DNA of 8,730 bases from Candidatus Desantisiibacteriota bacterium. GTDB taxonomy: Bacteria > JACRDZ01. Below the pieces are notes generated by a model, which was not told where the DNA came from, made no database searches, and saw nothing but the letters and a program-made list of their open reading frames with translations. This document shows positions 1 to 8,730 of the stretch, piece by piece. The DNA lies in the NCBI GenBank assembly GCA_016209155.1, contig JACQWU010000179.1, forward strand, positions 1 to 8,730, read 5' to 3'. The translations under genes were made by a program, and so were the position numbers. Each line of letters starts with the position of its first letter. The stretch's first letter is position 1.

Positions 1-24
1 AGAAAAGAATTAAAATAAATAACT

Positions 25-30
25 AAGGAA
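25..30 (+). promoter_or_regulatory. Shine-Dalgarno site of the metallophosphoesterase gene
   Basis: AAGGAA lies 5 bases before the ATG at 36. This spacing favours that ATG over the TTG immediately before it at 33. The 24 bases upstream are too few and too AT-rich to call a promoter. Confidence 0.65.
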
Positions 31-35
31 TTTTG

Positions 36-983
36 ATGATATATAAAAAACGATTCTTTTTTATGATTGTTTTTTTTTATGTGCAGATATTTATTCCTCA
101 AATAAAAATAGTATCCGCTGAGGATGTAAGCAGGTTTTCTTTTGCGGTCGTTGCCGATCCAAGGGATAGAGGGGATACATGGAAAAATGCCCTTATTGAA
201 ATACGTGATATGAAAACAAATCCCGACCCTAAATTTAATCCGGTTGAATTTATAATAGTTGCCGGAGATATTGATCCTCTTGAAACAAGATATAATGAAT
301 TTAAAGACATTTTTAATAATTTTAAAAAGATACAATTATTCCCGGTAATTGGCAATCATGAATTTGAGGATAATAAAAAGCATTATATCTATGCACGGGA
401 TATTATAATTCCAAATATTCACGGTCTTGTTCCAAGACACGATAAATCATGCGATTATTATTTCGATTATAAAAATGTTAGGATTATAGCAATTGACGGA
501 TACAGTGAGCTCGGGAAAGATGGTGTTATAAATAGCAGGGGTGTTGAATGGCTGGAACAGATTATTAAGTCAACGCCTTCCTCGGTTAATCATATTTTTA
601 TATCTTACCACAGTCCGGTTTTTCCGCGATTTAACCATACGGATTTTGAATCAATAAAAGAAAGAGAGGCTTTATGGAACATGCTGGTCAGATATAATGA
701 CCGGGTAAGAGCTGTGTTTAATGGGCATACACATTTTTATTATCGTATGCGTATTTTAAATCCCTCCGGCAGTAGTGTTAATGATCAAACCAGTTTTCCT
801 GATGAAGCAAATGGTATTTTTCAAGTTGATGCAGGTGCGGTTGGACGTGGAATACTAAGTACCATAGTGAAAGTGCAGGTAGACGGATCTGATTTATTTT
901 TTAGAGTTTTTCAAGCAGAAAACGGTACCGGTAAAATTTTTCGTTTGATAGATGAGTGGAATTTTAAAAGTTCAGATAAATAG
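36..983 (+). CDS. Secreted calcineurin-like metallophosphoesterase
   Basis: This 315-residue protein (ATG at 36, good ribosome site) is probably a phosphoesterase acting outside the cytoplasm; its substrate cannot be told. Residues 1-28 look like a signal peptide: KKR, then a hydrophobic phenylalanine-rich core, then a VSA-like cleavage site before E29. The fold is supported by the ordered metal-site motifs of the family: GD at 77-78, GNHE at 106-109, a YH at 191-192 and GHTH at 230-233. The first motif is unusual: where most members have D-x-H, this one has D41-P-R43, so one usual ligand is missing. The conserved SRGVEWLEQ segment (167-175) is also typical of the family. The gene converges on the chemosensory operon and is not part of it. 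The TAG stop lies inside a palindrome. Purple acid phosphatases, which use a lone Asp in motif I, are a possible relative, but the tyrosine of their GDxxY motif is absent. Confidence 0.82.
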   Translation: MIYKKRFFFMIVFFYVQIFIPQIKIVSAEDVSRFSFAVVADPRDRGDTWKNALIEIRDMKTNPDPKFNPVEFIIVAGDIDPLETRYNEFKDIFNNFKKIQLFPVIGNHEFEDNKKHYIYARDIIIPNIHGLVPRHDKSCDYYFDYKNVRIIAIDGYSELGKDGVINSRGVEWLEQIIKSTPSSVNHIFISYHSPVFPRFNHTDFESIKEREALWNMLVRYNDRVRAVFNGHTHFYYRMRILNPSGSSVNDQTSFPDEANGIFQVDAGAVGRGILSTIVKVQVDGSDLFFRVFQAENGTGKIFRLIDEWNFKSSDK

Positions 984-1050
984 ACTGAAGGTAGAAGACT
1001 TTTAGGTACAAATTATCTGTAATAACTAATATCCTTCAGCCTTCAGTCTA
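981..1050. repeat. Imperfect palindrome between convergent genes
   Basis: TAGACTGAAGG (981-991) is a perfect 11-base inverted match to CCTTCAGTCTA (1040-1050). After a 2x2 internal mismatch the pairing resumes with GAAG (994-997) against CTTC (1034-1037), leaving a loop of 36 bases. The first three bases are the TAG stop of the metallophosphoesterase gene. The right arm contains CCTTCAG twice in tandem (1033-1039 and 1040-1046), a 7-base period. It could form an mRNA hairpin at the convergent 3' ends, but no T-run follows on either strand, so I call it a repeat and not a terminator. Confidence 0.75.
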
Positions 1051-1067
1051 AACACCTGAATTTGGAA

Positions 1068-2552
1068 TTAACTTTCCTTTATTTTTTTTATATTATTTTT
1101 ACAAACTTGCACCAGTGTCTGTCTGCTCATTATCTCATCAAATCGGCTTTGCCCCTCTTTATTTTCATTTGTACTGCTATATTTAATAGCATTATTATAA
1201 GAAATTATTGATTTTTCTAATTCATCTATTTGAAAATAAAGATCTCCAAGGTAAAAATGTGCCAGAAAACAACAGGGATTAATGTAAATAACCTTTTCAA
1301 ACTGTATAATGGACTCACATATATTTCCATTATCTTTATAAATTACACCTAAAAAAAAGTATGATTCATAAAAAAGAGGATCAACTTCTTTTGCCTCAAG
1401 ACAAAGCTTTAAAGCTTCATCTGTTTTCCCGTTATTTAAAAATTCCTCTGCTTTTTTTAAAAGAAGTTCGGATTCTTCTCTAATACAATGCTTAAGTTTA
1501 GAAGGGGAAGTTATTTCTAATGATTGAATTTTCTCCTTTTCTTTATTTCTCCTCTTATCCTCAGAGTATTTTGACTTCGTTACATCCGCTTCAATGACAT
1601 TTTTTCTTCTTTCCGGAAGTTGAATAAGCCCGGACTTATCATCATCTTTTTCCCATGCTATATTCCTTTTAACTGTTATATTAAGCGTATCAGGTATTCC
1701 CTTGCGATAAAAAAATGCATTTTTGTATTCAACAAGGGTGAAGGATTCTTTACACTGATTTAAGGTCTCAGAATGGCCGATAAAAAGATATCCGCCTTCT
1801 AATAGACTATTATAAAAATTGTGAATAACTCTTTCAGTTGATTCATGTTTAAAATAAATAGTAACATTACGGCAAAAAATTATATCCCAGTTTTTCATTT
1901 CACTTAAAGGATAAGGGATTTCAATTAAATTAAAATATTTATATTCTACCAGCTTTTTTATATTTTCCTTTATTGCATAATTATTTTCATCTATTCTGTC
2001 AAAGCAGGATATCCGGTAATTTTCATTTACAAGGCGCATACTCCATTTTTGATAGACTCCTTTTTGTGCTAATTCTAACACATGCGGATTTACATCAGTC
2101 CCCAAAATATGGATATTCCAGTCTCTTATATCAAGAATTGTATGAATAAGTATCATTGCAATCGTATATGGTTCCTCCCCGCTGGAACATCCGGCCGCCC
2201 ATATATTAATTTTTTTATTTGCCCCTTTTTTTTTATTTAAAATCTCCGGAATAACAACATCCTGTAAAGCTTTAAATTGTGCCGGATTACGGAAAAAACA
2301 GGTTTCATTTATTGTGATTAAATTCAATAATTCCTTGAATTCAGTTTCACCGGCTGGATCATATTTTATGAAATTGTAATATTCAGAATAATCATTAAAT
2401 TTATTTTGCGTTATTCTGGCTAAAAGGCTTATACTTAGAGGATTGAATTTATTATCGTTTAGATAAATTCCGCTTTTTTCATAAATAAGATCTCGGAAAA
2501 GTTTTAATTGGGGTAAAGATAAGTTTTTATTTTTTATTCTTTGACTATACAT
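1068..2552 (-). CDS. cheR: CheR-type methyltransferase with C-terminal TPRs (WspC-like)
   Basis: It transfers methyl groups from S-adenosylmethionine to glutamates of chemoreceptors in the cytoplasm, raising receptor activity. The 494-residue protein has the CheR N-terminal helical domain (about 12-75), the NETCFFR motif (82-88), the SAM-binding loop around NIWAAGCSSGEEP (116-128) and CRNVTIYF (227-234, usually CRNVLIYF). A charged, lysine-rich linker (about 300-360) leads to roughly three tetratricopeptide repeats (361-460), for example SYFFLGVIYKDNGN and AHFYLGDLYFQIDELEKS. Plain CheR is about 280 residues; the TPR extension is characteristic of WspC and FrzF-type methyltransferases of alternative chemosensory pathways. 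The start at 2552 overlaps the end of the upstream GGDEF gene by 19 bases, suggesting translational coupling, with a moderate GGAAG ribosome site. It is the last gene of the operon, and the visible receptor has no C-terminal pentapeptide tether. Confidence 0.92.
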   Translation of the reverse strand: MYSQRIKNKNLSLPQLKLFRDLIYEKSGIYLNDNKFNPLSISLLARITQNKFNDYSEYYNFIKYDPAGETEFKELLNLITINETCFFRNPAQFKALQDVVIPEILNKKKGANKKINIWAAGCSSGEEPYTIAMILIHTILDIRDWNIHILGTDVNPHVLELAQKGVYQKWSMRLVNENYRISCFDRIDENNYAIKENIKKLVEYKYFNLIEIPYPLSEMKNWDIIFCRNVTIYFKHESTERVIHNFYNSLLEGGYLFIGHSETLNQCKESFTLVEYKNAFFYRKGIPDTLNITVKRNIAWEKDDDKSGLIQLPERRKNVIEADVTKSKYSEDKRRNKEKEKIQSLEITSPSKLKHCIREESELLLKKAEEFLNNGKTDEALKLCLEAKEVDPLFYESYFFLGVIYKDNGNICESIIQFEKVIYINPCCFLAHFYLGDLYFQIDELEKSIISYNNAIKYSSTNENKEGQSRFDEIMSRQTLVQVCKNNIKKIKES

Positions 2553-4000
2553 ATTCTATTTCTTCCGGATTTTTTCGCCTGATAAAGCGCTTCATCAACA
2601 GCTTTAATTATTTTTTCTCCGGTACTATCGACCAAATCTTTTTTGCAAATTCCAACTCCCAGACTAATGGTCAGGTGCAGCGGTTCTTTTTGCCCGGAAA
2701 AACAGAACTCTTCAACAGCTTTTCTTATTTTTTCAGCAACAACTGTTGCTCCATTTATATCAACTTCAGGTAAAATCACAATAAATTCTTCGTCGCCATA
2801 ACGAACGGCAATATCATTCTTTCGTATTTCCCTGCGAACTATTTCCGAAATTTCTTTTAAAACTATATCTCCCTGAATATGGCCGTAAGTATCATTTATT
2901 TTTTTAAAAAAATCAATATCAAACATTAAAAGTGACAATATTCGTTCATAACGCACCGCTCTATCTATTTCCTTCGGAAGAATCTGCAATAAATATCTTT
3001 TATTATATAATTTTGTCAATCCATCAGTTATTGACATATCCGCAATTTTTTTATATAACCTGGAATTATCCATTATAATTGAAGTTTGATTAACGATAGA
3101 ATCTAAAAGATTTCTGTCTTTATCAGTATATGCTTCGTCTTCTACACAACCGAGAAGTAAAACACCTATAGTATTGCCTCTGCCTGAAAGTTCTGAAATT
3201 AAAAATGAATTCAATTTTTTAGCTAAAAAAGGAGTCTCTTCTTTATCTTTTTTTTCAACCATCTGCACAGTCAGCTCATCTTTGGCTATCTTTATACCTG
3301 CTATTTTATTGAAATAGTCCAATATATTATCTATAATCATATTTTTATTTTCTTCTGACTGATTATATCCATGGTAAAGCAAAATATTTTTTTCTTCACC
3401 TAATAATATTGCTCCAATTTCAAACCGGATAATTTTCCGGAGCATATCAAATATCGAAAAAATTGTTTTTTCCTCATCGTATATAGTCCGTCCGATGTAA
3501 CTAATCTCATTTAAAACTGTTGATTCCAGCAATTTTTTATCGAGCAGATCATTTACTCTTGTGAAAATATCTGTTTGGCTGATTTTTATTTCTGCGGTTT
3601 TATTTATTACACTTTTTTTTTGTATATTTAAAAGTTTTTCAACAGTTTTTATCAGTTCAGGAGCTTTAAATCCTTTAATCAGGTCTTTTAATAAATATTC
3701 ATCCGCTCCTGTATGCTTTGCCCAAAATTTATCTATTGGTTTATCCTGAGCAGTAAGAATAATAATAGGGATATTTGAAGTTAGAACATCATCTTTTAAT
3801 AATCTGCAGGCCTGATAACCATTCATCTTCGGCATAAGTATATCCAATATTGCTAAATCCGGCATTACTGTATAGGCTTTTTCCACTGCTTCAATACCAT
3901 TTATAGCTGTAAAAACTTCATATCCTTCTTTTTCTAAAATGAATTTTACCATAGTAAGTATTGTTGCCACATCATCGGCAATAAGAATTTTCTTTCCCAT
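2534..4000 (-). CDS. REC-GAF-GGDEF response regulator, putative diguanylate cyclase (WspR-like)
   Basis: This is the likely output of the pathway: phosphorylation by CheA would activate synthesis of cyclic di-GMP from two GTP. Numbering from an ATG at 4012 (492 residues), a receiver domain occupies about 6-127 (acid pair D13/D14, phospho-acceptor D57, K109). A divergent GAF-like region covers about 165-318, and a GGDEF domain about 325-492 (DGLTKLYN at 330-337, DIDFFKKINDTYGH at 365-378). The signature reads GDEEF (406-410) instead of GG[D/E]EF, so the second glycine is aspartate; the inhibitory RxxD site (RKND, 397-400) is at the right spacing. Classical WspR has no GAF, so this may add a ligand input. 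The start at 4000 is preferred because AGGGAA lies just before it; 4012 would add four residues. The gene sits directly after cheB and overlaps cheR. Domain assignment is firm; whether the cyclase is active is uncertain. Confidence 0.9.
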   Translation of the reverse strand: MGKKILIADDVATILTMVKFILEKEGYEVFTAINGIEAVEKAYTVMPDLAILDILMPKMNGYQACRLLKDDVLTSNIPIIILTAQDKPIDKFWAKHTGADEYLLKDLIKGFKAPELIKTVEKLLNIQKKSVINKTAEIKISQTDIFTRVNDLLDKKLLESTVLNEISYIGRTIYDEEKTIFSIFDMLRKIIRFEIGAILLGEEKNILLYHGYNQSEENKNMIIDNILDYFNKIAGIKIAKDELTVQMVEKKDKEETPFLAKKLNSFLISELSGRGNTIGVLLLGCVEDEAYTDKDRNLLDSIVNQTSIIMDNSRLYKKIADMSITDGLTKLYNKRYLLQILPKEIDRAVRYERILSLLMFDIDFFKKINDTYGHIQGDIVLKEISEIVRREIRKNDIAVRYGDEEFIVILPEVDINGATVVAEKIRKAVEEFCFSGQKEPLHLTISLGVGICKKDLVDSTGEKIIKAVDEALYQAKKSGRNRICIVKE

Positions 4001-4003
4001 ATT

Positions 4004-4009
4004 TTCCCT
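4004..4009 (-). promoter_or_regulatory. Shine-Dalgarno site deciding the start of the GGDEF regulator
   Basis: On the minus strand AGGGAA precedes the ATG at 4000 by 3 bases (5 from the GGGA core). The alternative ATG at 4012 has only a weak GAAAG before it and would place this site inside the coding region. The shorter protein, starting MGKKILIADD, fits the usual receiver N-terminus. Confidence 0.6.
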
Positions 4010-4023
4010 CATGCTTTCAAATT

Positions 4024-5013
4024 TTACAAATATTTTATAATTGTTTCTGCTATTTTATCAAGAGGAACTATTTCATCGATAACACCGCGTTCGATAGCCA
4101 CTTTTGGCATACCAAATACGGCACAGGTTTCCTCATTTTGAGCTATGGTCTTACCGCCTTCTTTTTTTATGCACTCTATTCCACGCGCTCCGTCATCGCC
4201 CATCCCTGTCATAATAACTCCAATAGCGTTTTTCCCAAAATATTTTGCAATTGAAGGTAAAACTATATCTGCAGAAGGCTTGACTCCGCCAACCGGAGGA
4301 GAATCTTCATATTGAATTTGCCCTTTATTATTTATAATCATATGACAGGTATCAGGAGTAAAAAGAACCTCTCCGGGCTTAATCATATCTCCTTCCTGTG
4401 CCACTCTTATTTTTATTTTACTCATCGACTGCAGCCAGTCAGCTAATCCCTGAATAAAACCCTTACTCATATGCTGTACAATAACAACTCCGGCAGGTAA
4501 ATTTGGCCCTCCTGTAGATGCGGCTATTGCAACTACACGATTGCAAGCCCCTGATTGCTTCATCCCAAATTTAAAATTTTGTAATCTCATAATTGAGCTT
4601 TCTATCCCCGTGGTAATTTTTGCTTTAGATAGAATTTTTATTTTTTCAATTAAAATTTTTCCTATATTCGGATCGCTTGCAATCTTATATACAGGCGGTT
4701 TATTTATTAGATCCAATGCTCCGGCTTCCAGCGCTTTAAAAACCAGATCGGATTTAGGCGTATAACTTGCAGTAACTATTAAAATACGGGTGGGGCAAAT
4801 CCCCATAAGATGACGCACAGTTTGAAACCCATCCATATCAGGCATTCGTAGATCCATAAGAACAATATCGGGTTTTAGCTGGGGAATAATGTCAATAGCG
4901 CTTTTGCCTCCATTTGCCATACCAACAACCTTAATCTCAGGATCTTTTTCTATTACAACTTTGATTAATTCTCTTACAGTTTTCAAATCATCAACTATTA
5001 TAACTTTTATCAT
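4024..5013 (-). CDS. cheB: CheB receptor methylesterase/deamidase with a shortened catalytic domain (WspF-like)
   Basis: CheB removes methyl groups from receptor glutamates and so resets the pathway; phosphorylation of its receiver by CheA activates it. Residues 1-125 are a receiver domain (D8/D9, phospho-acceptor D54, K105). A linker leads to the methylesterase domain from about 159. Catalytic residues can be assigned as S166 (in AASTGGP), H181 (in VQHM) and D273 or D274 (in GMGDDGARG). The spacing from Ser to His is 15 residues, against 26 in E. coli CheB (S164 to H190). The segment that normally reads like xALxxVLxxLP after STGGP is absent, and STGGP runs directly into NLPAGVVIVQHM. The total of 329 residues is correspondingly short. 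The rest of the domain, including VGGVKPSADI, is ordinary. A strong AAGGAG site precedes the ATG. The identity is sure; enzymatic activity is doubtful. Confidence 0.92.
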   Translation of the reverse strand: MIKVIIVDDLKTVRELIKVVIEKDPEIKVVGMANGGKSAIDIIPQLKPDIVLMDLRMPDMDGFQTVRHLMGICPTRILIVTASYTPKSDLVFKALEAGALDLINKPPVYKIASDPNIGKILIEKIKILSKAKITTGIESSIMRLQNFKFGMKQSGACNRVVAIAASTGGPNLPAGVVIVQHMSKGFIQGLADWLQSMSKIKIRVAQEGDMIKPGEVLFTPDTCHMIINNKGQIQYEDSPPVGGVKPSADIVLPSIAKYFGKNAIGVIMTGMGDDGARGIECIKKEGGKTIAQNEETCAVFGMPKVAIERGVIDEIVPLDKIAETIIKYL

Positions 5014-5018
5014 ATAAA

Positions 5019-5024
5019 CTCCTT
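5019..5024 (-). promoter_or_regulatory. Shine-Dalgarno site of cheB
   Basis: AAGGAG on the minus strand, 5 bases before the ATG at 5013, is a near-consensus site. It lies about 11 bases beyond the palindrome that fills the rest of the cheA-cheB gap, so cheB can be translated independently of cheA. Confidence 0.7.
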
Positions 5025-5034
5025 ATTAAAAGAA

Positions 5035-5094
5035 GCAATGAGTGATGAGCAATGAGCAACGAGTTCAAAAAATACTCATTGCTCATCACTCATC
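5035..5094. repeat. Palindrome made of 7-base tandem units between cheA and cheB
   Basis: ATGAGTGATGAGCAATGAG (5038-5056) is a perfect 19-base inverted match to 5075-5093, with an 18-base loop. The left side is also a tandem array of 7-base units: GCAATGA, GTGATGA, GCAATGA, GCAACGA (5035-5062). The right side continues the same period in the opposite orientation. The right arm ends at 5093, the last base of the cheA TGA stop (read on the minus strand). A strong hairpin in the operon mRNA is expected. It could affect the cheA/cheB expression ratio or RNA stability, but there is no proper U-tract for an intrinsic terminator. Confidence 0.85.
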
Positions 5095-7378
5095 ACATAA
5101 TTAAAGAATTAATAATTTCCAGAAGATTTTGCTGATTAAATTCAGCTTTTGTAATATAAGCATTTGCTCCCACGCTGATACCTTTTTTCTTGTCTTCCTC
5201 ACTTCCCAGACTGGATACTATTACCACTGGAATTTTTTTATAATTTTCATCTGATTTTATCATTTTAACAAGTGTCAAACCATCCATTTCCGGCATTTGA
5301 ATATCGGTAATAACTAAATTAATATTTAATTTCGCCAACTGTTCTAAAGCATCCTTTCCGTTTTTAGCTAATACCACTTTGTATCCATAGGATTCAAGAA
5401 TAATTTTTTGCAATTGGCGAATAGTCAGTTGATCATCGACGACTAAAACAGAAGGAGCTTCAGCTTTAGTTTTTTTATCCGTTTTTTCCATTAAATTCCT
5501 GATTTCTTTCTCCCTGGCTTTAATCATGAGCTCAAACGGGCTTAAAATTAAATCAACCTCCCCGCTTCCTAAAATAGTTGCCCCGATAACAGCGCTTATA
5601 TTCTGCAGTTTGTCTTCAATACTTTTTACGACAACTTCATGCTCATCAACAAGCTCATCGACAACAAAAGCTATCCTTTTTTGTTCACTTCCAAGAATAA
5701 CAGCCGAGAGTATATCCGGTCTTCCTTCCTTTTGTTTCTTTTTTCTTATATTAAGAGTAATGTCCATCCATACCAGAGGAATAATGTGATCATGTACAGA
5801 AATTGCTTCTCTCCCTTCTATAGTATGAATATCTTCATATTTTATATTTATTGCTTCTTCCACATTTAGAGAAGGTATCCCCATAAGCTGCCCTTTGACC
5901 CTGACAATTAATATATTGGTAGTTGTTAAAGAAAGAGGAATCAGAAGTATAATATTTGTTCCGATTCCAGAGCTATCGGATTCAACATCTATTGATCCAT
6001 TTAATATTTTTATGTTGTGCAGTACAACATCCATTCCTACTCCGCGTCCTGAAAGTGAGGTGATAATATCTTTTGTGCTAAAACCGGGTTTAAATATTAG
6101 ATTTATTAAATCCTTTTTCTTGAGAGATTCAATGTCTTTTTCCGTATATATTTTTTTTTCTATTGTTTTCTTTTTTTTTTTTTTAATATTTATTTTTTCA
6201 ATATTTATTCCCTGCCCGTTATCAGAAATATTAATCTTTAATTGATTTCCCTGATAAGATACAGCCAATTTAATTTCCCCCGCTCCGGGTTTACCTTTTT
6301 TTATTCTCTCATCAGGCGCTTCGATGCCATGATCAATCGAATTTCTTATAATATGAATTAATGGATCGCGCAGATTTTCTATGATTTTTTTATCAACTTC
6401 TGTTTCCTCACCTTCTATAACCAAATTAATTTCCTTGCCAAACTGATTGGAAAGATCTCTTACCATCCGCGGGAAAGTTGAAAACAAAACAGAAATAGGC
6501 AGCATTCTTGTTCCCATTATTCTATTTTGATAATCACTAATAATAGTATTATGATGAGATATTGTCCGTGAATGGTTATGAAATAAATTATCAAATTGCT
6601 CTTTAAGCCCGAAAATGTTCTGGATATTTTTGTTTAATCGTAAATTTATATCACTCATCCCCTGATTGTTTATTAAAAAAAATTTATTCCGCCATTCTAA
6701 GGAAAATTTATGCCATTCCTGTATTTCTCTATAAAACGAGTCTTGTATTTTTTCCATATCTTTAATCTCTTTATTCATACAAATCCTGTCAATTATCATC
6801 TCACTTGCCAGATTCAAAAGATAATCTAATTTTTCAGTTTTAATCCTGATAGAATCCTGTCCCGGAGAATGAGCGGGACTTGCAGCGATAGCTGGAGAAA
6901 CTAATTCCTCGTTTTGTTTTTCGGGTTCCTTATCAGGTTTTTCTTTCTGCCGCGGTATCTTGCTGTCAGGTTTTGTATCCAGTGTGTCCAGCGGTTCTCC
7001 TTTAGCGATTTTGTCTAATTGTCCCATTATAGGAGTTATATCATAGTCAACAGTTTGTTTATTGATCACTGCCTTTAAAAGCAGATCTATAGCATCCACA
7101 CCTTTAAGGATGACATTAAGCATCGAGGCGGAAAAGGTGATTTTTTCTTCATTGATCAGCCTGACAATATCTTCCAATCGATGAGATAAGGTTTCAATGT
7201 TTTCAAATCCCATAACTTTAGAAAGACCTTTTAGATTATGAAGCCCGCGCATAACATCTGTCCAGCATTCCTTTTGCCCGGGATTTTTTTCTAAAGATAA
7301 AAGATTTGTATTCAGACCTTGAATTAATTCAAGGCTGTCTTCTTTTAAAGCTTCCAGAATAACATCTTGTTCGGACAT
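5093..7378 (-). CDS. cheA: Hybrid CheA histidine kinase with C-terminal receiver (WspE-like)
   Basis: The central kinase autophosphorylates on its HPt domain under receptor control and passes phosphate to receivers. In 761 residues from the ATG at 7378: HPt (about 1-125, phospho-His H47 in LHNLKG), a Pro/Lys/Glu linker (126-175) with no recognisable P2 domain, a long helical dimerisation region (about 178-300), ATPase (N box HIIRNSIDHGIE 342-353, DNGQGI 386-391, PGFST 431-435, GRGVGMD 444-450), CheW-like P5 (about 483-620) and receiver (643-761; D648/D649, D692, K744). The extended dimerisation region and TFPRMVRDL motif resemble WspE more than E. coli CheA. An A14 run encodes K399-K404 near the ATP lid. 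The start was chosen for its AAGGGA site and the MSEQDVILEAL N-terminus; a GTG at 7447 would read through a palindromic repeat. Only 74 bases separate it from the receptor gene. Confidence 0.93.
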   Translation of the reverse strand: MSEQDVILEALKEDSLELIQGLNTNLLSLEKNPGQKECWTDVMRGLHNLKGLSKVMGFENIETLSHRLEDIVRLINEEKITFSASMLNVILKGVDAIDLLLKAVINKQTVDYDITPIMGQLDKIAKGEPLDTLDTKPDSKIPRQKEKPDKEPEKQNEELVSPAIAASPAHSPGQDSIRIKTEKLDYLLNLASEMIIDRICMNKEIKDMEKIQDSFYREIQEWHKFSLEWRNKFFLINNQGMSDINLRLNKNIQNIFGLKEQFDNLFHNHSRTISHHNTIISDYQNRIMGTRMLPISVLFSTFPRMVRDLSNQFGKEINLVIEGEETEVDKKIIENLRDPLIHIIRNSIDHGIEAPDERIKKGKPGAGEIKLAVSYQGNQLKINISDNGQGINIEKINIKKKKKKTIEKKIYTEKDIESLKKKDLINLIFKPGFSTKDIITSLSGRGVGMDVVLHNIKILNGSIDVESDSSGIGTNIILLIPLSLTTTNILIVRVKGQLMGIPSLNVEEAINIKYEDIHTIEGREAISVHDHIIPLVWMDITLNIRKKKQKEGRPDILSAVILGSEQKRIAFVVDELVDEHEVVVKSIEDKLQNISAVIGATILGSGEVDLILSPFELMIKAREKEIRNLMEKTDKKTKAEAPSVLVVDDQLTIRQLQKIILESYGYKVVLAKNGKDALEQLAKLNINLVITDIQMPEMDGLTLVKMIKSDENYKKIPVVIVSSLGSEEDKKKGISVGANAYITKAEFNQQNLLEIINSLIM
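6171..6184 (-). repeat. A14 homopolymer inside the cheA ATPase coding region
   Basis: Fourteen consecutive A on the coding strand (T on +) encode lysines K399-K404 between the DNGQGI and PGFST motifs. A second run of nine A follows at 6151-6159. As written the frame stays open. Removing one A gives TAG at 6162-6160; adding one gives TGA at 6131-6129. It is a simple-sequence tract able to slip during replication or transcription. Confidence 0.85.
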
Positions 7379-7384
7379 GCTTTG

Positions 7385-7390
7385 TCCCTT
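7385..7390 (-). promoter_or_regulatory. Shine-Dalgarno site deciding the cheA start
   Basis: AAGGGA on the minus strand, 6 bases before the ATG at 7378. The upstream alternatives (GTG at 7447, ATG at 7426) lie within the palindrome and have no comparable site, so their codons are probably untranslated leader. Confidence 0.65.
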
Positions 7391-7400
7391 AAATTTATTT

Positions 7401-7453
7401 GTAGCGGGTGAATTACAATTCGCCATTAAGCGGAATGGTAATCCCACCGCTAC
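7401..7453. repeat. 53-base imperfect palindrome between the receptor gene and cheA
   Basis: GTAGCGG (7401-7407) pairs with CCGCTAC (7447-7453). Inside, ATTAC (7412-7416) pairs with GTAAT (7439-7443), and ATTCGC (7418-7423) pairs with GCGGAAT (7430-7436) around one bulged G. The six-base apical loop is CATTAA. Symmetric internal loops separate the stems. The outer end at 7453 is the G of the receptor's TAG stop. The form, with terminal inverted repeats and a nested hairpin, resembles a small non-autonomous mobile element or REP-type repeat; no flanking target duplication is obvious. It fills the intergenic gap except for the cheA ribosome site. Confidence 0.7.
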
Positions 7454-8730
7454 TAGCTTTTTGTTTTAAATTGATTAATAGCGATTTTAAGTTCTTCAGC
7501 TAATTTATTAAGTTCACTGACTGCAGCTGTTCCTTCTTTTGCTCCGCCTGCAAGTTGTCTGGTTACATCAGAGATTTCCTTCATTGAAATAACCACCTGC
7601 TCATTAGCGCTTTTTTGCTGTTGTATAGAATTGCTGATTTGTTTTGCTTCAGATGTGGTCTGTTCCGCAATTTCAAGAATTTCTTTTAACCCTTCACCGG
7701 CTTTTTTAGCGAGGATTACTCCATCTTCAATTTTTTTCATACTTTGCTCGGTAGCCATTACTGAAGCATTGGATGCATCCTGAATTTCTTTTACAATATT
7801 TTTTATTTTAGTAGTTGATTTAACAACATTTTCAGCCAGAAGTCTTATCTCTACAGCTACCACAGCGAATCCTTTGCCGTATTCACCGGCTTTAGCCGCT
7901 TCAATAGCGGCATTAAGGGATAAAAGTTTGGTTTGGTTTGCAATATCATCGATAATATCAATTACTTCGCCAATTTCCTGTGAGCGTTCTCCCAGGAGAA
8001 CTATTTTTTCTGAAGTTTGCTGGGCTTTGTTTTTTATATCTTCCATTCCTTTGATTGTGTCCTCAACTGAAGAAAATCCGTTTTCTGCCTGATGAAACGT
8101 CTCCTCTGAAATTTTAACTACAGCATTGGAATTTTCGGCTATTTGTCTTGCAGTATTGGATAATTCTTCTATTGTAGCCGTAATTTCGCTGACTGCTGCA
8201 GCCTGCTGTGTTGCGCCGCCGGCCTGTTGCTCTGATGAAGCAAAAAATTCAGCCGAGGCGGAACCTATCCTTAATCCGGCACTTTTAATCTCCTCAACCA
8301 GATTTTTGAGTCTATCTACCATATAATTAAAATGATCTGATAATTGTCCGATTTCATCATTGGACTGTTTCTTTATCTGATTTGTCAGGTCACCCTGAGT
8401 TGCAATTAAATTAGAGGCTCTTGAAATTTCCGATATCGGAGTAATAACAAATTTGTTAATAAAATAATAAATGATAAAAATAATGGAGGCAATACCTAAA
8501 ATAAAAATAAATGCTATGACTTTTTGCTGATCTTTTATAAGCTTATCGCTTTCTTCCAGCGAAAATGTAATTGATAGTGCAGCTGCTACATCATCTATTT
8601 TTCCTTCATGGCACTTAAGGCATGCTTCATTGAATTTAATAGGTGATATTTCCTTGAAATACCGGATTCCGTTTTCTTCCTCAGTTTTTTTAACTGTCAA
8701 TCCCTTCAACGCCTGCATTTCTTCGTTGCT
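7453..8730 (-). CDS. Methyl-accepting chemoreceptor with c-type haem sensor domain, 5' end outside window
   Basis: This is the sensor of the pathway; it should control CheA through its cytoplasmic tip. The reading frame is open to the right edge, so the N-terminus and first membrane helix are missing. Numbering from the first internal Met (codon 8718-8716), residues 1-65 are the end of a Tll0287/DUF3365-like extracytoplasmic domain, with C33-LK-C36-H37 as a c-type haem-binding motif and a following AAALSITF strand. One membrane helix spans about 67-89, then HAMP (about 90-143), then the methyl-accepting coiled coil (150-421). The hairpin tip is around IANQTKLLSLNAAIEAAKAGE (259-279), where the common QTN is QTK. 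There is no C-terminal CheR-binding pentapeptide; the protein ends INQFKTKS. As first gene of the visible set it corresponds to WspA, though WspA itself has no haem domain. The ligand could be redox state or a gas such as NO; this is inference. Confidence 0.9.
   Translation of the reverse strand, partial: SNEEMQALKGLTVKKTEEENGIRYFKEISPIKFNEACLKCHEGKIDDVAAALSITFSLEESDKLIKDQQKVIAFIFILGIASIIFIIYYFINKFVITPISEISRASNLIATQGDLTNQIKKQSNDEIGQLSDHFNYMVDRLKNLVEEIKSAGLRIGSASAEFFASSEQQAGGATQQAAAVSEITATIEELSNTARQIAENSNAVVKISEETFHQAENGFSSVEDTIKGMEDIKNKAQQTSEKIVLLGERSQEIGEVIDIIDDIANQTKLLSLNAAIEAAKAGEYGKGFAVVAVEIRLLAENVVKSTTKIKNIVKEIQDASNASVMATEQSMKKIEDGVILAKKAGEGLKEILEIAEQTTSEAKQISNSIQQQKSANEQVVISMKEISDVTRQLAGGAKEGTAAVSELNKLAEELKIAINQFKTKS

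Follow-up and report, generated by a model that had tools for sequence, protein, structure and literature searches.

An operon of seven chemosensory genes, five of which lie wholly or partly within the window (the whole stretch of DNA analysed here, 8,730 nucleotides long and corresponding to bases 1-8730 of a 17,767-base contig in a draft, metagenome-type assembly with 352 contigs and 79% genome completeness), is likely to encode a non-motility, ACF-like array in which a receptor bearing c-type haem would act on a CheA-REC kinase and the kinase, in turn, on a REC-GAF-GGDEF regulator. This reading is built on the gene set, its synteny, the domain types and the conservation of the haem motif and its ligand. 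Since the receptor would hold its haem outside the membrane and the output gene is of the c-di-GMP enzyme type, the array probably uses a redox or NO signal to decide on lifestyle and not to steer swimming. Each part is known, and their combination appears to be undescribed. For c-di-GMP sensors, a 2022 census names cytoplasmic inputs of the haem-PAS, globin, H-NOX and NosP kinds; its accessible portion includes no periplasmic c-haem receptor and no chemoreceptor array fed by haem. WspA lacks a defined ligand and still works when its sensor domain is swapped (PMC8846402), which makes the input of the Wsp pathway difficult to pin down. With a haem receptor, a Wsp-like array would have a defined input (redox potential, NO or CO, with a readable spectrum) and a defined output, c-di-GMP.

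The operon runs on the minus strand in the order cheW, cheW, receptor, cheA-REC, cheB, REC-GAF-GGDEF, cheR-TPR, or W, W, A (the receptor), E, F, R, C in Wsp letters, with reading frames that mostly touch or overlap end to end. Domain searches confirmed the five genes that the first-pass annotation had read at 1068-8730, together with their domains and common strand: the 3' part of the receptor gene (an MCP; HAMP and 40H signalling domain, 7453..8730), cheA-REC (5093..7378), cheB (REC and methylesterase, 4024..5013), the REC-GAF-GGDEF response regulator (2534..4012) and cheR-TPR (1068..2552, with its TPR repeats at 1173..1373). For cheA we preferred the ATG at 7378 over the mechanical GTG start at 7447, because the starts of the orthologues match 7378. 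At its edge (8730) the window meets a scaffold gap, a run of 31 N at 8731-8761, that interrupts the receptor gene, which continues past it to contig position 9105; the first transmembrane segment and the first half of the receptor lie 5' of the gap. Both flanks of the gap show an identical 8-base sequence, TCGTTGCT; the gap is therefore probably an artefact, with nothing missing from the sequence. Further upstream are the two cheW genes (contig 9128-9586 and 9583-10122), followed by gltX in the opposite orientation; the flagellar or cheY gene directly upstream that had been named as evidence against the original reading is not there. None of cheY, cheD, cheC and cheZ lies within the operon cluster in the window genome or in the related genomes G002 and G003. 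A secreted-looking metallophosphoesterase gene at 33-983 of the window (plus strand) is convergent with the operon and probably unrelated to it.

Comparison within the phylum, a poorly known one, covered four genomes, the window's own included. G002 and G003 (the latter 98% complete) carry all seven genes in identical order, and their CheA, receptor, cyclase and CheB are 58-62% identical to the window copies. Over its whole length the receptor is 58-60% identical, with the CxxCH motif and the Met invariant and the positions flanking CxxCH kept. The retention of the seven-gene order and of the CxxCH receptor in both genomes excludes chance assembly. The more distant G001 has cheW, cheA-REC, cheB, REC-GAF-GGDEF and cheR-TPR, with no receptor adjoining. 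Synteny in G002 and G003, joined by this related cluster, argues from the sequences that the operon is old within the phylum and has been selected as a unit. PilZ c-di-GMP receptors and Cytochrom_C_asm cytochrome c assembly proteins were found in all four genomes, and the haem-copper oxidase/NorB family (PF00115) is absent from all four. This absence tilts the reading towards an anaerobic organism and redox as the signal, and is compatible with NO as well. G002 also has, two genes beyond the downstream end of the operon, a REC-HD-GYP gene (L016 2826-4004, minus strand), likely a c-di-GMP phosphodiesterase. G000, G002 and G003 have a second haem protein, in which a Tll0287-like domain that scores above the Pfam cut-off is joined straight to GGDEF (GGEEF) (L019 2633-3970; L020; L021); these fused domains are more distant from the operon sensor.

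The output regulator has a fold similar to those of PleD and WspR, as judged by structure comparison of the GAF and GGDEF parts alone of an AlphaFold model that is poor overall (pLDDT 57). The extra GAF region claimed for it (3068..3448) is borne out by a GAF_2 match with an E-value of 1.6e-5 and by a predicted order of strands and helices compatible with GAF, although the score of 25.6 bits stays under the Pfam cut-off of 28.6. A related GAF occurs in the REC-GAF-GGDEF protein of G001, and a weaker likeness in Gastranaerophilales REC-x-GGDEF proteins encoded beside CheA-REC genes. The GG[DE]EF signature of diguanylate cyclases reads GDEEF in the window copy (2783..2797), a Gly to Asp change at codon GAC, 2792-2794, and GGEEF in G001-G003. 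Such a change is expected to abolish cyclase activity. There is no sign of a Hypr (cGAMP) cyclase: the Asp of 'IQGDIVL', which we take to be the base-contacting residue altered in Hypr enzymes, is retained.

Is the window copy, then, decaying or repurposed? Under this explanation the cyclase would be dead, and the regulator, if acting, would bind c-di-GMP or a protein through its inhibitory site. Among 56 GGDEF domains surveyed the window copy is the sole case of a changed second glycine in an otherwise normal signature, and the RKND motif (an RxxD I-site, 2813..2824) is intact. In addition, CheB lacks 12 residues (36 bases; junction 4503..4504) right after its catalytic serine motif ASTGGP, a deletion absent from three relatives. 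On the other hand, all operon reading frames are intact, the frame is kept across the deletion, the remaining GGDEF catalytic residues are present, and an incomplete draft that already contains one artefact in the receptor gene may contain other errors. We regard decay or repurposing as a tentative explanation, unlikely on balance although the most serious of those considered. Either the function is being lost in the window copy or the draft assembly is wrong; this strain's cyclase may thus be inactive, and a c-di-GMP output would be sound for the family and doubtful for the window copy.

On the input side, the receptor has two transmembrane segments flanking a periplasmic domain of ~150 residues, followed by HAMP and a signalling hairpin. 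Two symmetric 14-residue insertions relative to the hairpin of E. coli Tar (36H) place it in class 40H, the signalling class of WspA (PMC2577667). The periplasmic domain carries the c-type haem attachment motif CLKCH (8608..8622). The first-pass annotation had seen in it a haem domain like Tll0287/DUF3365; the haem motif stands, whereas the match to that Pfam family (PF11845) reaches 21 bits, below the gathering cut-off of 24.1. Because Pfam gave no PF11845 match in either orthologous receptor (G002, G003), the sensor was assigned by a profile of our own, a sequence search of the PDB and a fold search. The PDB search returned three chains at E<1: GSU0582 (3b47, E 0.008) and GSU0935 (3b42, E 0.036), both of which align colinearly end to end with the sensor, and one cytochrome c, which matches weakly. 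An AlphaFold model of the sensor, of modest quality (pLDDT 62), predicts a helix, strands with the CxxCH loop between beta3 and beta4, and a final helix. Searched with Foldseek against 350,542 chains, it found GSU0935 (3b42) at the top (E 1.5e-4), followed by GSU0582 and Cache domains, and a second structural comparison returned Cache sensors throughout.

A profile search of ~790 genomes from two other groups added 31 further sensors. All 36 aligned rows have CxxCH, and Met occupies the column of GSU0935 Met60 in all 30 rows that extend to it; residues 26 and 110 of the 3b42 chain correspond to Met60 and His144, so that the numbering is consistent. GSU0935 and GSU0582 of Geobacter sulfurreducens lead the PDB matches both by sequence and by fold; with this conservation, the sensor domain is, by sequence and model, assigned to their type, and the window receptor has fold, CxxCH and axial Met in common with them. 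A covalent c-haem on the receptor is well supported as a prediction, and its occupancy is inferred. In GSU0935, Met60 is the sixth haem ligand, displaced by NO and CO and released on oxidation (PMC8396549), and a 2026 preprint describes membrane-bound members of the wider sCache_heme family as behaving like NO sensors (PMC12889525); the signal here would be redox or NO. Unlike the system proposed here, the two Geobacter c-haem chemoreceptors have been ascribed a role in redox-guided movement (PMC8396549), not in c-di-GMP signalling through an operon of their own. The wider sCache_heme/DUF3365/Tll0287 family has the Cache fold with CxxCH at the same place (PMC12889525), although Tll0287 itself has an axial Cys where Met is the predicted sixth ligand of the window receptor.

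How might such an array work? The periplasmic single-Cache domain would bind one covalent c-haem at CLKCH, with the His of the motif as one ligand and the Met as the probable sixth. A change in haem redox state, or the binding of NO or CO, would displace the Met and shift the receptor dimer, and the shift, passed on through HAMP and the 40H hairpin, would raise or lower the activity of CheA-REC, a kinase presumably held in place by the two CheW proteins. CheA would phosphorylate the REC domain of the REC-GAF-GGDEF protein, and this protein would make c-di-GMP in the relatives and may, given GDEEF, make none in the window strain. CheR-TPR and CheB would tune the methylation of the receptor.

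The haem could instead be structural, or the array could mainly answer another input such as a surface or envelope stress. WspA with a swapped ligand domain still senses surfaces (PMC8846402), so the main input may lie elsewhere than in the haem domain. Against this stand the invariance of Met and CxxCH over 30-36 relatives from several phyla with varied outputs (MCP, GGDEF and other open frames), and the two independent pairings of such a receptor with c-di-GMP operons described below. We consider a structural haem or a different main input unlikely and continue with the haem-gated array.

Does the operon belong to Wsp? It has the full part list of WspABCDEFR (Pseudomonas and beta-proteobacteria), including a 40H MCP and two CheW proteins, but its order differs from wspABCDEFR, its MCP, CheA and CheB are 28-33% identical to their Wsp counterparts (CheA 28%) and its CheR 23%, WspA has a 4HB ligand domain in place of the haem Cache domain, the cyclase carries a GAF insert, and the CheA lies outside the WspE clade. 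A survey that found Wsp restricted to beta/gamma-proteobacteria defined it by wspA-F synteny and at least 30% identity to Pseudomonas/Burkholderia (PMC8552884), and the window operon falls outside that definition by its order and by its CheA and CheR identities. In a 49-row maximum-likelihood tree the CheA proteins of the window, G002 and G003 group together as a clade (100/100), near CheA-REC proteins of varied phyla, and WspE with its near relatives forms a separate clade (100/100). Nesting the window CheA in the WspE clade costs 183 log units and is rejected (AU p=3e-6), which argues against calling the operon Wsp in the narrow sense of descent. Of the 'Wsp-type' label in the first-pass annotation, the part list stands, now extended by the two CheW proteins and joined by a receptor class shared with WspA, and descent is not supported. 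We call the operon Wsp-like by analogy in its mode of action, with Wsp descent left as unproven. A search of plasmids for the named Wsp references matched mostly receiver domains, and the CheA-REC of Deferribacter pDF308, a promising find at first, was dropped as it groups with flagellar references.

The kinase phylogeny that had been proposed as a check excluded WspE nesting, but union with several classes stays compatible: AU tests gave p=0.12 for a sister position to the broad Wsp clade, p=0.215 for the flagellar (F) references and p=0.079 for the Tfp references (ChpA). With Wsp, F and Tfp unions all compatible with these tests, we claim no CheA class. The CheA has a single Hpt, P3, P4, P5 and a C-terminal receiver (5111..5449), and lacks P2; kinases with REC and without P2 belong mostly to the F3, F5, ACF and Tfp classes (PMC10782961). 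CheR-TPR next to multidomain response regulators marks ACF clusters (PMC3447774), and both occur in the operon. Control of type IV pili, with the GGDEF protein secondary, would agree with CheA-REC as a Tfp trait (PMC10782961) and with a ChpA grouping that is not rejected at 0.05; the one Hpt, the lack of a single-domain PilG/PilH-like REC in the cluster, and the presence of the multidomain REC-GGDEF and CheR-TPR make it very unlikely.

The window's own genome has a flagellin gene and, besides the operon, a further CheA cluster, of flagellar type, that includes cheD, cheY and cheX-like genes. These genes and the compatible F grouping might point to a standard flagellar chemotaxis system with an atypical output gene, but this is most improbable, since the flagellar-type system is a separate cluster, the operon itself lacks the che genes listed above, and G002 and G003, where no flagellin gene was detected, keep it (G003 with no other CheA found), so that the idea is already contradicted there. 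Flagellar control is thus unlikely. The original claim of a coupling to cyclic di-GMP and away from flagella holds for the REC-GGDEF gene and for the flagellin-free carriers, and may fail in its first half in this strain.

A search for the sensor type beyond the phylum yielded further operons. The 395 genomes taken from the phylum-level group to which a Geobacteraceae genome belongs include 11 with the GSU0935-type sensor. In two of these (G090, L170 1-9406; G072, L172 3-9316; both minus strand) the genes after the haem receptor are cheW, cheR, cheW, cheA-REC, cheB and REC-GGDEF, which reproduces wspABCDEFR order exactly. A quick tree places their CheA inside the Wsp-like clade, and the receptor, CheA and CheB of G090 share 48-55% identity with P. 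putida Wsp. The two operons share sensor type and part list with the window operon but differ in the canonical order, the Wsp-like CheA and cyclases (GGEEF) that are REC-GGDEF without GAF. Elsewhere the sensor also sits on GGDEF fusions and stand-alone MCPs.

With the CheA of G090 and G072 inside the Wsp clade and that of the window outside it, the sequences indicate that the pairing of a haem receptor with a Wsp-like operon arose two or more times, on separate CheA lineages; that the two pairings are independent depends on the CheA trees, and receptor-only horizontal exchange would give the same picture, such exchange being itself one form of independent pairing. Whether there is a recurrent module, periplasmic c-haem to array to REC-GGDEF, assembled independently at least twice (in this phylum outside Wsp and in another phylum-level group inside the Wsp clade), and forming a chemically defined, redox- or NO-gated Wsp class outside beta-/gamma-proteobacteria, seems to us evenly balanced. 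The Wsp-clade operons with haem receptors call into question the exclusivity of Wsp to beta-/gamma-proteobacteria.

The phylum-level group of G090 and G072 is not known for Wsp. The Wsp part list also appears, beyond the published range, in operons of Rectinema (Spirochaetota) and of non-Pseudomonas gamma-proteobacteria (Methylococcaceae and others; L075, L082, L108, L089). In a Nitrospirota-like group, haem MCPs adjoin double-CheW and CheR genes without REC-GGDEF (L187 951-5980, L191 4480-9470).
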